Source: Bacteroidia bacterium (GTDB taxonomy: Bacteria; Bacteroidota; Bacteroidia; J057; JAIXKT01). From it: 64,000 bases of DNA. Position 1 is the first letter of the stretch, and every line of letters begins with the position of its first letter. A program made the position numbers and the translations under genes. Of the stretch, positions 44,213 to 51,509 are shown piece after piece. Under the pieces are notes generated by a model, which did not search any database, was not told the DNA's origin, and saw only the letters and a program-made list of their open reading frames with translations. The stretch spans positions 124,001 through 188,000 of the forward strand of contig JAIXKT010000054.1 in assembly GCA_026932145.1 (NCBI GenBank). Direction: 5' to 3'.

Positions 44213-46261
44213 ATGTTTTTTTCCCGTTTATATGTATTCTTTTTACTCGGTTTATGGTGCTTTCCACAACTGCAAACTTTTGGCCAAAGCCAATCTAAAG
44301 AATTATTTGAAACCGGAAAGAGTCTATACGAGCAAAAAAAATATAGCAAAGCACGAGAATATTTTCAAGATGCTGTTAATAAAGACCCTAAGCAATACGG
44401 CGGCAAGGGAAACTACCATATTGCGCTGAGCTATGTAAAGCAAAAAAACTGCTTAGATGCCAAAGAATATTTCACAAAAGCCTTCAAACAAGATTCCGTT
44501 GCAGGCGGGGCAAGCTCCAAAGATAAGTTTATAGAGCAACTATCTAAGTGTAACTTTACTATCAACGACTTAAAAATAGAATCAGGTAATCAGCCCCAAA
44601 TCACTCCGCCCCCCAAAAACATAGACCCTACATTTGCTAAACAATGGTTCCAAAGAGGAAAAACTGCCTATGACCAAAAAAACTATCCCCAAGCCATAAA
44701 TTATTTTCAACTGGCCTATTTGTCTGATACTGCGAAATATGGAGCCAAAGCCTGTTATCAAATTGCTTTATGCTATAAAAAACAAAAAAACTGTAATTCT
44801 GCGAAACCATTTTTAGCAAAAGCCCAAAAAATCGAACCCGATAAAGGCGGCGCAAGTTCAGCAGAAAAATTTCAAGAATTTTTAACCTATTGCCACTTTA
44901 CCGTAGATGACCTGAAGAAATCCAATGAACCCGTTTTTCAAGTAAATGACAATTTAGATAATAACGAAACAGAAACATCTAACAGCCTTGAAATAACACC
45001 GGATTATAATGGCTTGATGCGCATCGGAAACAATCTTTTAGAAAAGCAACAATATGATTCTGCGGCAGTTATCTTTGCCCAAGCTGCCGAAGTCTGTATA
45101 AATACAGAATTGAGAATCAGAACTTTTGTAACACTTGCTCAAACCTATGTCAAACTTAGAAATTGTGCCGAAGCCTTCAAAGCCTACTCAAACGCATATC
45201 GTTTGGATTTTGAAGAATATAGCGGTTCCTTATTAGCTAACCAAGAACCCGAAGAAAGTGAATGCAAGTTTTCCCGTAACGAACTATTAGTAGGCAGGCG
45301 ATTATCTGCTTTTGAAAAAGCCCAACTCCATGAACCAATTATCTGGAGTTATGTGCCCTTCATAGCGGCCGCTTTCATCGTAGTGTTCATTATAGCTTAC
45401 AAACGTAAATTAAAATTATCATCAGAACCCTCAAAGGTATATGCGCTCAACCATACAGAAATAGAATTACCTATTCCAGCAGAACTCACAGAAAAAATGC
45501 TTCTTATCCCTGAAAGGGAACGTAATCAGTTATTATTATTATTCAAAATAGCTTTTAACTCCATTCGAGAAGTATGGCAGTTTGAAAATAATGCAGCGCA
45601 AAGAACCCAAAATGCCTCAAAATACTTTGCTAAGTTAGATTCTATTTGGGAAAAATTTAATGAGCAACCTATTCAGTTTATTGAAGGAAAGGATTCTAAT
45701 GAACTTGTAATCAGCTTATTACTACTTACCCATAAAGAAGATTGGTACTGCTATTTTAGTGGACAATATCTGGGAGAAAAAGCCAAAATATTGCAGATAA
45801 GACATCCCGCAGGGAAAAAAATAAGTGTATGGGCTTCAAAGTCAACTATTGAAAAAGTGAATACGAAACAGCCCGTAAAAGTTCGTATCCATAAAATCGT
45901 GCAAGATGGAGTTCCCACTTGGGTACATTGGAGCCAAGACCCAACATTTTTTAACTGGGATAGCACACCCGAAAAAAATACAGATAATATGCAACAATGG
46001 GCGGGAGAAAGCAAAAATGTATTACCGGAAACCATCCCTAATATTATCTTTAAACCTACTTTATACTACAACTATCCACATCCGGAAAGCATCTTTACAG
46101 AGAGCCTTATCATAGAAGAAAAAGTAGAACAAACTGGTTATCAGGGAACTAATAAAAAGAACTATGAAGAAAACACCATAAATACAGTACAGTCCTCTGA
46201 TGTTTATATTACACATATTCCCAATAGACATCACCACCAAACGCACCGAGATGATTCCTAA
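44213..46261 (+). CDS. TPR-repeat membrane protein with internal duplication
   Basis: 682 residues. A signal peptide ends about residue 25 (LQTFGQSQ). Two closely similar ~95-residue units follow (about 29-126 and 143-240), each with paired TPRs, a QKNC turn, a GGASS motif and an end of the form CxFTxxDLK; a third, more diverged unit spans about 265-370. One membrane segment (YVPFIAAAFIVVFIIAY, near 380-397) separates this exported half from a ~280-residue C-terminal half with no recognised domain. The gene overlaps the BrkB-family gene by 11 nt. Confidence 0.75.
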   Translation: MFFSRLYVFFLLGLWCFPQLQTFGQSQSKELFETGKSLYEQKKYSKAREYFQDAVNKDPKQYGGKGNYHIALSYVKQKNCLDAKEYFTKAFKQDSVAGGASSKDKFIEQLSKCNFTINDLKIESGNQPQITPPPKNIDPTFAKQWFQRGKTAYDQKNYPQAINYFQLAYLSDTAKYGAKACYQIALCYKKQKNCNSAKPFLAKAQKIEPDKGGASSAEKFQEFLTYCHFTVDDLKKSNEPVFQVNDNLDNNETETSNSLEITPDYNGLMRIGNNLLEKQQYDSAAVIFAQAAEVCINTELRIRTFVTLAQTYVKLRNCAEAFKAYSNAYRLDFEEYSGSLLANQEPEESECKFSRNELLVGRRLSAFEKAQLHEPIIWSYVPFIAAAFIVVFIIAYKRKLKLSSEPSKVYALNHTEIELPIPAELTEKMLLIPERERNQLLLLFKIAFNSIREVWQFENNAAQRTQNASKYFAKLDSIWEKFNEQPIQFIEGKDSNELVISLLLLTHKEDWYCYFSGQYLGEKAKILQIRHPAGKKISVWASKSTIEKVNTKQPVKVRIHKIVQDGVPTWVHWSQDPTFFNWDSTPEKNTDNMQQWAGESKNVLPETIPNIIFKPTLYYNYPHPESIFTESLIIEEKVEQTGYQGTNKKNYEENTINTVQSSDVYITHIPNRHHHQTHRDDS

Positions 46262-47207
46262 GATAATAAACTCTTGGCATAAGCACGCACTCGTAAAAAA
46301 GACTGTTGTAGGGCTAAAGAACTTTCAGCCGCCGGGCTTCGGCGGTGTAGGCTTGTTTTATGTGATTAAGTTATTTTGGAAAGACGTTAGGGATCCGGCC
46401 TTTGTTTTAAGGGCTAACGCAATGGCTTACAACTTTTTCTTTGCCTTGATTCCCTCCCTTATTTTTATTTTCACATTAGTTCCATACATCCCGATACCCA
46501 ATTTTCGGGAAACCGTTCATCAATGGCTTTCTACTTATTTGCCCCAAGAAGGGATTTCTCTGATAAACGGTATCATAAGCACCAGTTTTGAAAAACGCGG
46601 ATGGGGAGTTATTTCAATCAGTTTTTTGCTGCTTTTGTATAGCTCTACCCGAAGCATCATCACGATGATGGCTTGCTTCAATAAGCGGTATTTTTATCGC
46701 AGAAACGTTTTTCAAGAAAGACTTTTAGCAGTCGGAATCTTTTTTGTGTTATTTCTCTTATTAATTATTGGAGCCGCAGCCTTGATTTTTGGCGAGTTTG
46801 GCATCAGTTATTTAGGAAAACAGCACATTATAGGCGGAAAAGTCCCTTATTTTTTATTACATCTACTTAATTGGCTAATCAATTTACTACTGTTATTTGG
46901 CGTTCTTTCATTTATCTACTGGGCAGTTCCCTCAGTTGATAAAAAATTCCATAAGACAGGCCCCGGTTCGTTTTTAGCCGGATTACTGATGATGTTAGCT
47001 ACCATTGGGTTTCGTTTTTTTATTTCCAACTTTGGCAATTACAACAAAGTGTATGGTAGTTTAACCGCCGTTATCATTTTGTTGGTATGGTTTTACTGGG
47101 TTTCTATTGTTCTTTTAATTGGCTTTGAGTTAAATGCAAGTATCGAAAGAGCTGCCCGAAAAGGTACAAATCTTACGGAATTATTAGAGGTGGGTTCTAA
47201 AAATTAG
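46251..47207 (+). CDS. YihY/BrkB-family inner-membrane protein (C-terminus altered by an insertion)
   Basis: 318 residues from the ATG at 46251; a longer frame from 46200 lies within the previous gene. About six membrane segments and the family motifs ANAMAYNFFFALIPSLIF and YGSLTAVIILLVWFYWVSIVLLIGFELNA identify it. Function is not established (the old name RNase BN is wrong). The last codons, VGSKN and stop (47190-47207), coincide with the 18-nt left end of a deleted IS element, so the native C-terminal tail has probably been cut or replaced. The conserved core is complete. Confidence 0.85.
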   Translation: MIPKIINSWHKHALVKKTVVGLKNFQPPGFGGVGLFYVIKLFWKDVRDPAFVLRANAMAYNFFFALIPSLIFIFTLVPYIPIPNFRETVHQWLSTYLPQEGISLINGIISTSFEKRGWGVISISFLLLLYSSTRSIITMMACFNKRYFYRRNVFQERLLAVGIFFVLFLLLIIGAAALIFGEFGISYLGKQHIIGGKVPYFLLHLLNWLINLLLLFGVLSFIYWAVPSVDKKFHKTGPGSFLAGLLMMLATIGFRFFISNFGNYNKVYGSLTAVIILLVWFYWVSIVLLIGFELNASIERAARKGTNLTELLEVGSKN

Positions 47208-47783
47208 TTTTTTTTATTCTTTATTCGATAATTCACAACTAATTAATAGCATATTACGATGTAAATAGATTTAATCTTTGAACTTGTTCAAGCCTGAATA
47301 AGTTGTAGGTAAGATTGATGAGTTCGATTATACCTGTTGCTCTTGCTATTCCTACAGATTTAACAGCAAGCCCGTTCATGCTTTGTTCCATAAAATCAAA
47401 TACGTGTTCTACTCTTACCCTTGTTTTAGATTTTATCTTATTTTTTGCTTTTTGTTTATCCGTCAAAGGGTTACCTCTGTATCCTTTTTTGTGTATTTGG
47501 TTTTTAAGCCGGTATTTTCGGATTATTTTTTTGGTTTTTCTTTTCTGTATTTAATAAGTTAGATGCTAATGTGTTGCGAAATGCCTCAAAATCAACAACA
47601 TCGCTTATTATTTCTAATGGGTTGCCAATTGCAGACAAACGTTCAATAGTAAATTGCTCGTCAAATAATCCTTTTTGGCCATTGGTTTTATACTCTTGTG
47701 ATGTCATATTGTTTTCGTGTTAAATTATACGCAAATATACGTATAATTACTTGAATAACAATGATTTAAATTATAGAAGCCAC
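47190..47783 (-). mobile_element. Non-autonomous, internally deleted IS5-family element, copy 1
   Basis: 594 bp between inverted ends: GTGGGTTCTA at 47190-47199 and TAGAAGCCAC at 47774-47783 (one mismatch). It carries only the N-terminal and C-terminal parts of a transposase on the minus strand. About 510 bp are nearly identical to copy 2 at 50432-51165; the left arm is about 130 bp shorter than copy 2 (loss of an A/T-rich block and of most AACT repeats). No direct target duplication is visible (flanks TTAGAG and CTAAAA). Confidence 0.75.
47254..47707 (-). pseudogene. IS5-family transposase with catalytic middle deleted (copy 1)
   Basis: Two fragments on the minus strand. 47504-47707 encodes the N-terminus (EYKTNGQKGLFDEQF, IGNPLEIISDVVDFEAFR). 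47254-47466 encodes the C-terminus (KSKTRVRVEHVFDFMEQSMN, GIIELINLTYNLFRLEQ), which includes the glutamate helix of the DDE site. The intervening ~200 residues with both catalytic aspartates are missing and the two parts are out of frame. Apart from the final residue the peptides are identical to those of copy 2. Confidence 0.8.
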
Positions 47784-47788
47784 CTAAA

Positions 47789-47987
47789 ATGAATAAAGAG
47801 TTTGAAAAATTTATCGAACAAACAGAAAAATTAATGACTGCAAGTGAAAAATATGTTTCGGGAGCAGAAAAGGAACTTGACGACCACGAAGTAGCAGCGA
47901 AGCTAATTTTGCGACAGCTACTTTGCAAATGATACAGATGTAGAAAATTATTGCAAAGAAAAGCATATCCCTATAAATGAGGATTAA
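47789..47987 (+). pseudogene. Frameshifted small ORF
   Basis: A 47-codon frame from the ATG at 47789 stops at 47930-47932. In another frame a coherent acidic C-terminus (SYFANDTDVENYCKEKHIPI, then NED) continues to a TAA at 47985-47987. Joined by one frameshift near 47915 the parts would make a ~65-residue helical protein. The gene begins 6 nt outside copy 1 of the deleted IS element. It may be a decayed gene or a programmed frameshift; no family was recognised. Confidence 0.4.
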
Positions 47988-48068
47988 GAAACAGCTGCCA
48001 TCCTTAAATAAATTAGCAAAACTTGTAAAAAACGCAAGTTTCGCTAATTTATTTTGCACTTTTGTATT

Positions 48069-49304
48069 ATGAAAAATTATACTAACCGTAAGGAATATAT
48101 AGAAAAACTGCTGTCATATAAGGATAAAGACCTTATAAAAGTAGTTAGCGGTTTACGTAGGTCGGGCAAATCGACACTTTTGGAATTGTATTGGGAGCTG
48201 TTACTTAAAGCAGGTGTTGGTAAACGACAAATTCAGTTCTACAATTTTGAGTTACCCGAAAATTTTGTAGGAAAAAATTGGGACGACATTTATTTTGACA
48301 TCAAAAAGAAGTTACAAGCAGATAAGCCTAACTATATATTTTTGGACGAAGTACAAAACATTCCATTGTTTGAAAAATTGGTGGACGGACTGTTCGCATC
48401 CAAAAATGTGGACGTTTATATCACAGGCTCAAACGCCTTTCTATTATCAAGTGAATTAGCCACTTTGTTAAGCGGTCGCTACATCGAAATTTCAATTTTA
48501 CCCTTTTCATTCAATGAATATTTAACGGCACGAGGCATTGACATTAGTAACAAATACTTGAACTACGAACCTTTATTTTTTGATTATGTAAATGAAACAT
48601 CATTGCCCAAAGGCGTAGCATTGCGTAAAGACGGCTATGATAAAATTTACGAATATCTGGAAGCTATTTATACGACTATTGTAGAAAAAGATATTACACA
48701 ACGACACCAAATAAACGATAAAAGAGCATTTGAAAACATTGTTAAATTTATGGCTTCAAATGTGGGAAATGCTCTTTCTCCAAATAATATCTCAACTATT
48801 TTGAAACAAGATGGGCAAAGCATTCATCGAGATACTGTTGAGAAATATTTGGGATATTTGGTAGCAAGTTTTGTATTCTATAAAGTAAACCGCTTTGACC
48901 TAAAAGGCAGAAAACAATTAGCTACACAGGAGAAATATTACTTGGTAGATATGGGACTGCTAAATATTTTTATGGGTAAAGAACGTACTAACGACAGAGG
49001 GCATATTTTAGAAAACATTGTTTACTTGGAACTACTTCGCAGAGGTAATAAAATCTGGACAGGAACAAGTAGAAACAGCGAAGTCGATTTTGTTTGTAAA
49101 ACCAAAACTGGAGATATTGAGTATTATCAAGTAGCTTGGCAGATGACTAACGAAAGTACCGTAGAACGTGAATTTGGGGCATTAGAAAAAATAAATGATA
49201 ACTATCCTAAATATTTGCTCACAACTGATGGATTTACGCAAAACCGAAGTGGAATACAGCATTTAAACGTATTTAATTGGTTGCTAAACACAGACAGAAA
49301 ATAA
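48069..49304 (+). CDS. AAA-family ATPase with DUF4143 domain
   Basis: 411 residues from the ATG at 48069; a TTG five codons upstream is less likely. Walker A is GLRRSGKST at 28-36 and Walker B NYIFLDEVQN. The AAA_14 core is followed by a DUF4143 domain whose end, ENIVYLELLRRG with NSEVDFVCKTKTGDIEYYQV, resembles a PD-(D/E)xK nuclease-like fold. Such proteins are common, mobile and of unknown role. The coding sequence looks intact. It lies within the segment bounded by the two deleted IS copies. Confidence 0.88.
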   Translation: MKNYTNRKEYIEKLLSYKDKDLIKVVSGLRRSGKSTLLELYWELLLKAGVGKRQIQFYNFELPENFVGKNWDDIYFDIKKKLQADKPNYIFLDEVQNIPLFEKLVDGLFASKNVDVYITGSNAFLLSSELATLLSGRYIEISILPFSFNEYLTARGIDISNKYLNYEPLFFDYVNETSLPKGVALRKDGYDKIYEYLEAIYTTIVEKDITQRHQINDKRAFENIVKFMASNVGNALSPNNISTILKQDGQSIHRDTVEKYLGYLVASFVFYKVNRFDLKGRKQLATQEKYYLVDMGLLNIFMGKERTNDRGHILENIVYLELLRRGNKIWTGTSRNSEVDFVCKTKTGDIEYYQVAWQMTNESTVEREFGALEKINDNYPKYLLTTDGFTQNRSGIQHLNVFNWLLNTDRK

Positions 49305-49658: not shown

Positions 49659-50414
49659 TTATTTATCATAAACATCACATTTTCTGAACATTATAAATTG
49701 TTTAAGTCCTTGAAAGTCGCTTTTCAATCTCCACGATTTTGCATATTCTGTAATGTCTGCCAAACCTTCTTCCCAAGGTTCATTGTTAAAAAGACTTTCT
49801 CCGATTATTGTTCCGTCTGCTCGTTTTGAAATATAAATTTTCAACCAATTTAATTTATTTGATGTCAGTTTATATTTTAGTTTGTCTTTGATGATTTCAA
49901 AGAGTGATTCGTTTTCAGGTTGGTCATTCCATTGTCCCTGAAGTGTCAGATTGCCCAATTTTGGATGCCAAAGAACTTCTTTGTCGTTCATAATTATAGA
50001 GAAGTCCAAGTCGGGATTATGGCTGTCAGAGAAGCTATCAATTATTGGTAGAAAAGTCGTGTTAATGTAATTGTCGATTACAGAATTGACTTTGTCTTGA
50101 ATATTTGTTCCAATACCAACAATATTTTCTTCAATACCATTTGGGAAATACTTAGGATGAATAGTCAAAATCATCAAATGTAAAATGCTCGGATGATTAT
50201 TTGGATTGTCAACAATAACAGTTGCAATCTCAATTTCAGAATTAACGACTAATGCAAGATATTGTGGATTTTTGTCAACCTGATAACCTAACTCTATAAG
50301 TCTATTTCTTAAAGTTTCAAGTAAATACGAATTGTTGTCAGTTGGTTCTGGTTGTTGCCTGTCAATTTGCTTGCTATCAGAGGATTTTTTTTTGAAAAAG
50401 TCAAATAGTCCCAT
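49659..50414 (-). CDS. DUF6348-like protein
   Basis: 251 residues. It begins MGLFDFFKKKSS with a short linker, then LLETLRNRLIELGYQVDKNP and a conserved body with HLMILTIHPKYFPNGIEENI and IIGESLFNNEPWEEGLADI. I recognise this pattern as the DUF6348 type, seen in scattered Bacteroidota and other bacteria, often beside polymorphic-toxin or mobile regions; no activity is known. No signal peptide. It starts 17 nt from copy 2 of the deleted IS element and is read away from it. Confidence 0.65.
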   Translation of the reverse strand: MGLFDFFKKKSSDSKQIDRQQPEPTDNNSYLLETLRNRLIELGYQVDKNPQYLALVVNSEIEIATVIVDNPNNHPSILHLMILTIHPKYFPNGIEENIVGIGTNIQDKVNSVIDNYINTTFLPIIDSFSDSHNPDLDFSIIMNDKEVLWHPKLGNLTLQGQWNDQPENESLFEIIKDKLKYKLTSNKLNWLKIYISKRADGTIIGESLFNNEPWEEGLADITEYAKSWRLKSDFQGLKQFIMFRKCDVYDK

Positions 50415-50574
50415 TTGTTGTTTGCCTATAGGTGGGTTCTAAAAATTAGTTTTTTTATTTTTTTCAGAAACAAATCAGAATCCTTTTAAAATCTGGGCTG
50501 AAAAAGTAAGTAATTATACAAATTATTTTTTTAATTCACATACAAAATTTTTATTTTTTTATTCAATAATCCAC

Positions 50575-50628
<54 letters not shown>

Positions 50629-50635
50629 TAGCATA

Positions 50636-51089
50636 TTACGGTGTAAATAAGTTTAATCTTTGAACTTGTTCAAGCCTGAATAAGTTGTAGGTAAGATTGA
50701 TGAGTTCGATTATACCTGTTGCTCTTGCTATTCCTACAGATTTAACAGCAAGCCCGTTCATGCTTTGTTCCATAAAATCAAATACGTGTTCTACTCTTAC
50801 CCTTGTTTTAGATTTTATCTTATTTTTTGCTTTTTGTTTATCCGTCAAAGGGTTACCTCTGTATCCTTTTTTGTGTATTTGGTTTTTAAGCCGGTATTTT
50901 CGGATTATTTTTTTGGTTTTTCTTTTCTGTATTTAATAAGTTAGATGCTAATGTGTTGCGAAATGCCTCAAAATCAACAACATCGCTTATTATTTCTAAT
51001 GGGTTGCCAATTGCAGACAAACGTTCAATAGTAAATTGCTCGTCAAATAATCCTTTTTGGCCATTGGTTTTATACTCTTGTGATGTCAT
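50636..51089 (-). pseudogene. IS5-family transposase with catalytic middle deleted (copy 2)
   Basis: N-terminal fragment 50886-51089 and C-terminal fragment 50636-50848, with the same junction as in copy 1. Reading past the stop of the first fragment, another frame continues as KNQIHKKGYRGNPLTDKQKA into the C-terminal fragment, showing where the ancestral protein resumes after the deletion. Neither copy can make an active transposase; movement would need a full-length relative elsewhere. Confidence 0.8.
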
Positions 51090-51165
51090 ATTGTTTTCGT
51101 GTTAAATTATACGCAAATATACGTATAATTACTTGAATAACAATGACTTAAATTATAGAACCCAC

Positions 51166-51509
51166 TATAAGTAATTCTGAGCCTCGTTCCTTTTCCGCTC
51201 ATTTTTAGATATTTTTGTGCTTTGACAATGAGGATAAGTAACCCTTGGTTTGACTGCTGGCATAGACGATAAAGCTTAGTCTTTATTGCCAAAAACTTTA
51301 TCATGCTTTCTAAGCCACAACTAAAATTAGATTCCGAAAAAAAAGAATAGCAAAATGAAAAACTACGCCGTAACAGGTTTTGAGAGAGGTGTTGAAAATG
51401 TAGGAATTAACAGTAATCCAAAATCATATAAACCAACGTACTAACCAAAACTTTAAAAGATTATACTCCCGTTCAGCACAAACAAAGCATTTTTCTATAT
51501 TCCTAACCG
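51166..51509. other. Intergenic stretch, no convincing gene
   Basis: Between deleted-IS copy 2 and the YdcF-like gene. A 29-codon ATG frame at 51355-51444 (MKNYAVTGFERGVENVGINS...) is the only candidate; it matches nothing I recognise and is too short to call. No hairpin or promoter consensus stands out. Confidence 0.4.

Follow-up and report, generated by a model that had tools for sequence, protein, structure and literature searches.

A BrkB-family gene in a Bacteroidia genome takes its 3' end from an internally deleted IS5-family element

A BrkB-family gene that ends in an element repeat

The window analysed here, a stretch of 64,000 nucleotides from the genome assembly of a Bacteroidia bacterium, contains an open reading frame (ORF) for a membrane protein of the BrkB/YihY family which runs directly into a short insertion sequence derivative (copy 1). 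A fragment of a different gene lies on the far side of this element, and a second copy (copy 2) is found further downstream. The features concerned are the following.

46200..47207, plus strand: BrkB/YihY-family membrane protein ORF, 335 aa (PF03631, TIGR00765)
47189..47784, minus strand: copy 1 of the element, IS5 family, 596 bp with an internal deletion, carrying transposase remnants on the minus strand
47189..47207, plus strand: terminal repeat of copy 1 on the side of the BrkB-family gene, 19 nt, GGTGGGTTCTAAAAATTAG
47254..47466, minus strand: transposase C-terminal remnant, 70 aa (DDE_Tnp_1, 27.8 bits, cut-off 23)
47504..47707, minus strand: transposase N-terminal remnant, 67 aa, without Pfam match
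47766..47784, minus strand: opposite terminal repeat of copy 1, reading GGTGGCTTCTATAATTTAA on the minus strand
47785..47987, plus strand: remnant of the 3' part of an unrelated gene with weak resemblance to HARE-HTH, approximately residues 264-322 of a 322-aa homologue
50431..51166, minus strand: element copy 2, identical to copy 1 over an unbroken run of 495 nt
51168..51263, minus strand: piece of a transposase-like repeat dispersed in the genome, starting next to copy 2 on its right

The 335 residues of the BrkB-family ORF are counted from the earliest start codon that follows a stop, and the start is thus putative. Its family membership is documented by a complete PF03631 domain (E 8.4e-55, profile positions 6-257 of 259) and by a TIGR00765 match of 83.5 bits against a cut-off of 73.15. 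The final five codons and the stop, at 47190-47207, read GTG GGT TCT AAA AAT TAG, and direct reading agrees with the initial annotation that these bases belong to a mobile element's terminal repeat. The same bases do recur at 50432-50449, at the left end of copy 2, while the shared repeat measures 19 nt rather than 18 (47189-47207 and 50431-50449, the only two sites in the window), because the element-derived part begins one base earlier, at the third position of codon 330. Hence, the gene owes to the element everything from that base up to the TAG stop, including codons 331-335 (VGSKN). At its left end, copy 2 lies in non-coding DNA as described, the nearest ORF (DUF6348, minus strand) starting at 50414. 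When GGTGGGTTCTAAAAATTAG is read outward from the BrkB-family gene, stop codons occur in two of the three frames within its 19 nt, giving GGF-stop and VGSKN-stop. It is the latter that stands in frame here, so that the proposal of a new stop codon provided by the element holds. Thus, the outer 19 bp of copy 1 are the 3' end of the gene, and its conserved domain is left whole.

The element family and its ends in this and other genomes

The element is an internally deleted insertion sequence of the IS5 family, carrying terminal inverted repeats at both ends and the DDE_Tnp_1 match on its 70-aa remnant. Used as a query, this remnant found matches in 15 of 295 genomes of the class, including its own, and the best match outside its own genome lies within a 347-aa frame in genome G148, with 78% identity over residues 1-67. 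The 347-aa protein belongs to NF033581 (IS5 family, 271.3 bits against a cut-off of 140; IS5_4 in NCBIfam), and the element that encodes it starts with nearly the same terminal repeat. For the 67-aa region, its copy on contig C55 gives a 75% alignment to residues 4-88 of this intact relative. Among annotated plasmid matches, IS1194-like IS5 relatives are 61% identical over 61 residues. The likeness to the IS5 family extends to terminal inverted repeats and, in the intact relative, a short A+T-rich target duplication; for the groups of this family, duplications of 2 to 9 bp are tabulated (PMC3281130). Unlike in the family at large, the copies found in the genome studied here have no intact transposase gene: the open frames in which the 67-aa and 70-aa queries matched are 39-98 aa long (all 10 candidates scored for the former, 20 of 24 for the latter), and these copies are therefore non-autonomous. 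A further search, in which 5 of 35 candidates were scored, returned one 376-aa frame on contig C9, which is a different IS5-like protein (31% identity) and not an intact copy.

The terminal repeat is much commoner in the genome than expected by chance. With up to three mismatches allowed, a degenerate pattern covering the two element ends gave 34 matches (14 of them without mismatch) versus 9 for the reversed pattern as control, and the flanks of different copies are unlike each other outside the repeat, except for duplicated segments. Element ends with a near-identical left flank are spaced about 4 kb apart on contig C1 (L168, L169 and L170 at 33936, 38209 and 41925), which suggests that a segment is repeated there; L169 and L170 contain runs of N. 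On contig C56 (8015-8056, L176/L177), a 42-bp element consists of little beyond two facing terminal repeats, with TA outside both ends.

The longest identical runs shared with copy 1 belong to copy 2 (495 nt) and to a copy on contig C37 (471 nt), all three having the same core. Copy 1 is distinguished by a copy-specific left arm, which has lost a large piece immediately inward of the repeat, and by a base of its own in the right repeat. A tandem AACT repeat in copy 2 (50574-50627) is much shorter in copy 1, and on the C37 contig an element end abuts an AACT-type tandem array.

The supply of a stop codon by this element family is not confined to the BrkB-family gene. In the same genome, GGF-stop in the repeat also terminates a radical-SAM ORF, whose Fer4_12 domain is complete (profile positions 3-137 of 137). 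At three of the 26 distinct repeat sites examined (C54:171189, C1:50576 and C1:33936; C37:1276 being the same site as C37:1457), at least 90 codons are open upstream without a run of N, an open frame not being equivalent to a proven gene; C1:38209 was left out of this count, as its frame runs through N. In ten other genomes, the totals for the repeat pattern with up to two mismatches are near those of the reversed-pattern control (56 versus 50 in G051), and sites were read there only where the repeat had no mismatch (n = 7). One of these seven, in G148, ends an ORF of at least 90 codons at a stop within the 19 nt. At another of the seven, on contig C424 of G051, 117 codons are open upstream, but the frame continues 59 nt into the element.

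An ISAzo13 transposase gene of G148 is split by the intact relative, and the ORF preceding this element ends with GGF-stop. The piece before the element covers positions 2-281 of PF07592, while a 29-aa piece beyond it covers positions 283-307 of 308, and NF033519 agrees with PF07592 on this split. When the empty site is restored with 0, 2 or 4 bases counted once, only 4 (TATA) keeps the frame; removal of one base would keep it too, with an additional residue that the profile positions do not need. Hence, the event that had been proposed for the BrkB-family gene, an insertion that cut a native tail and displaced it beyond the element, is seen in full in G148, a positive control with the cut tail readable on the far side of the element.

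The native tail and the flanks of the two copies

Whether copy 1 also cut a native tail was assessed by tail length, taken as the number of residues after a conserved ELNASI position in loci of BrkB homologues. The comparison comprised 51 loci (L032-L074 and L189-L196), 49 of which were measured, the other two having no aligned position; a few near-duplicates are included (e.g. L062/L063, L065/L066 and L072-L074), one source search supplied loci only for its 30 best matches, and 66 further loci (L075-L140, mostly cyanobacteria) were left out of the count. Tails range from 8 to 65 residues with a median of 17 (n = 49), being at most 15 residues long in 20 loci, at most 20 in 33 and at least 26 (26-65) in 9. 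Loci from the same order (n = 16) have a median of 20, with tails of at most 15 residues in 4 and of at least 26 in 7. The BrkB-family protein of the window has 15 native residues past ELNASI and 20 including the element-derived ones. No uninterrupted relative nearer than the same order was found among the 22 genomes searched, the own genome included, and the best BrkB match has 41% identity. None of the 49 measured homologues ends in VGSKN; a natural end in these same residues, which would have spoken against a contribution of the element, was thus looked for without success.

The suggestion that the insertion had cut the native tail does not gain support from these data, as PF03631 is complete to position 257 of 259 and the 15 retained residues are of usual length. 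Since tails of at least 26 residues occur in 7 of the 16 same-order loci, the loss of some native residues is nevertheless possible. The BrkB-family protein itself, with a tail that is changed yet of usual length, probably still works.

The displaced native 3' end had been expected beyond 47783 or 51165, and at neither copy was a native continuation recognised after the element. Beyond 47783, a tail of the BrkB-family protein is ruled out because the DNA there belongs to the 3' part of another gene. A search of 395 genomes of the class with the ORF to the right of copy 1 gave matches in 45 of them at E <= 1, in 11 below 0.001 (own genome included), and the ten strong matches elsewhere place it inside frames of 324-366 aa, the closest being that in G226 (97% identity over 32 residues). 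The match falls inside the frame in all ten loci, at 57-64 residues from the C-terminus, which rules out that the ORF at 47789 is a small gene with its own ATG. Seven of the ten loci were reported by blastn, with homology beginning at 47785 or 47786 in six and at 47789 in one, and the last base of copy 1 is 47784. The reading frame of the fragment (47785..47987) is broken by extra bases. The 5' part of the gene was not found: with the complete homologue as query, the own genome gave two overlapping matches, both of them this fragment. The 322-aa homologue matches HARE-HTH with E 0.005 and 17.6 bits, under the cut-off of 25.9; a PADLOC search with the homologue and a plasmid search with the 47-aa ORF gave no match. 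Copy 1 therefore joins two loci in the assembly, with the BrkB-family gene on one side and the interior of an unrelated gene on the other.

Copy 2 is flanked by the DUF6348 gene on its left and a dispersed repeat fragment on its right, and the nature of the latter rules out a BrkB tail beyond 51165. The repeat, about 160 bp long and transposase-like, has at least 31 matches in the genome including itself (40 of 101 candidates scored). Another of its copies weakly matches an InsA zinc ribbon (E 0.00038, below cut-off), whereas the piece in the window, 51168-51263, matched no Pfam family. This repeat also starts beside an element end at C1:315.

With the right end of copy 2 taken as 51165, the last base of its repeat being changed, TATA is present at both edges. 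The 4-mers outside copy 1 are TAGA and TAAA, alike in three of four bases. Among the nine own-genome copies with both ends read, identical 4-mers on both sides are found for one (copy 2) and agreement in three of four bases for three, copy 1 among them. A rule of 4-bp duplication, which rests on G148 and copy 2, is a weak guide.

Origin of the junction and comparison with known repeats

On balance, and with moderate confidence, we favour an origin of copy 1 from two insertions merged by deletion or recombination, with the BrkB-family protein, whose stop codon the element end supplies, still working. One element would have inserted right at the 3' end of the BrkB-family gene or a little way inside it and a second one inside the unrelated gene, and a deletion or homologous recombination between both elements would have left a single hybrid copy. 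The intervening DNA, including the sequence downstream of the BrkB-family gene and codons 1 to about 263 of the unrelated gene, would have been lost. The unequal 4-mers beside copy 1 are as expected under this account because its ends would stem from two insertions. What counts against it is that the junction spans sequence shared without a difference with copy 2 (495 nt) and with the C37 copy (471 nt). Equally unfavourable is the failure to find a reciprocal junction, as no other right end read starts with TAGA.

The chief rival, in our view rather unlikely, is an assembly join, in which the assembler would have bridged two real copies through their identical core. As copy 1 shares identical runs of 495 and 471 nt with two other copies, a misjoin could produce its junction, and the runs of N in or beside other copies as well as the division of the genome into 66 contigs fit such an error. 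It is opposed by the copy-specific left arm, which anchors the junction between the BrkB-family gene and the repeat, and by the private base in the right repeat. Even under an assembly join, the supply of the stop would be real and only the right neighbour of copy 1 would be wrong.

Unlikely, too, is that the element simply inserted at the BrkB stop codon, with a 4-bp duplication (TAGA/TAAA) in which one base has mutated. The empty site would then be GAA TGA, the native end ...TNLTELLE, and the element would merely have added VGSKN. Joining the flanks with four bases counted once indeed reads ...TELLE-stop, a 4-bp duplication occurs in G148, the tail has a usual length, and the agreement of TAGA and TAAA in three of four positions fits a single later mutation. 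However, two other copies of the nine also match in three of four bases, and a join with no base removed runs the BrkB frame on into the fragment. Moreover, the DNA to the right is the interior of another gene, cut at the element end, so that a plain insertion needs a BrkB-family gene that already abutted this fragment. As the main account, finally, an insertion inside the BrkB-family gene that removed a substantial native tail is very improbable: long tails among homologues (26-65 residues in 9 of 49 loci, at least 26 in 7 of 16 same-order loci) and the cut gene in G148 favour it, whereas the complete conserved domain, the commonness of tails of 15 residues or fewer (20 of 49, 4 of 16) and the lack of a recognisable BrkB tail to the right of either copy argue against it, yet it is compatible with a merger of two insertions and both may hold.

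Gene stops encoded by repeats are already in print, and the BrkB-family gene is a further instance. In Streptococcus pneumoniae, 58 coding sequences overlap BOX repeats, 36 of which have the repeat at their extreme 3' end, where it encodes the stop codon (PMC3049150); for these genes, no strong evidence of truncation is reported. As with copy 1, a dispersed repeat at the 3' end of a gene encodes the stop, while BOX is a modular repeat and copy 1 a deleted IS5-family element whose end lies at a junction with unrelated DNA. Similarly, insertions of QMITE1 and QMITE2 at 3' ends in Coxiella burnetii give functional annotated genes their last residues and/or stop, the mass of the affected proteins being not significantly changed (PMC5896051). 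Again, copies overlap the 3' ends of genes and confer last residues or stop; in contrast to copy 1 with its unrelated flanks, these belong to other element families and are described as insertions. In-frame fusions between MITEs and genes have been reviewed (PMC2229807).

A wider reading, which we regard as unlikely, is that elements of this family carry, in their ends, ready-made mobile terminators for genes: insertions at 3' ends would be tolerated because stops are available in two of three frames within 19 nt at the end facing the BrkB-family gene, copies there would persist, and they would later serve as recombination joints that splice in foreign fragments. The locus may provide a small example of deleted insertion sequences that edit protein tails and then act as joints for rearrangement. 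It also carries a warning that a gene ending in a repeat need not be truncated, the BrkB domain being whole and the tail of usual length. Between the two copies, at 48054-49304, lies an AAA_14/DUF4143 ATPase gene, which matches the PADLOC candidate-defence model PDLC04787 (PDC-S01) with E 2e-145.
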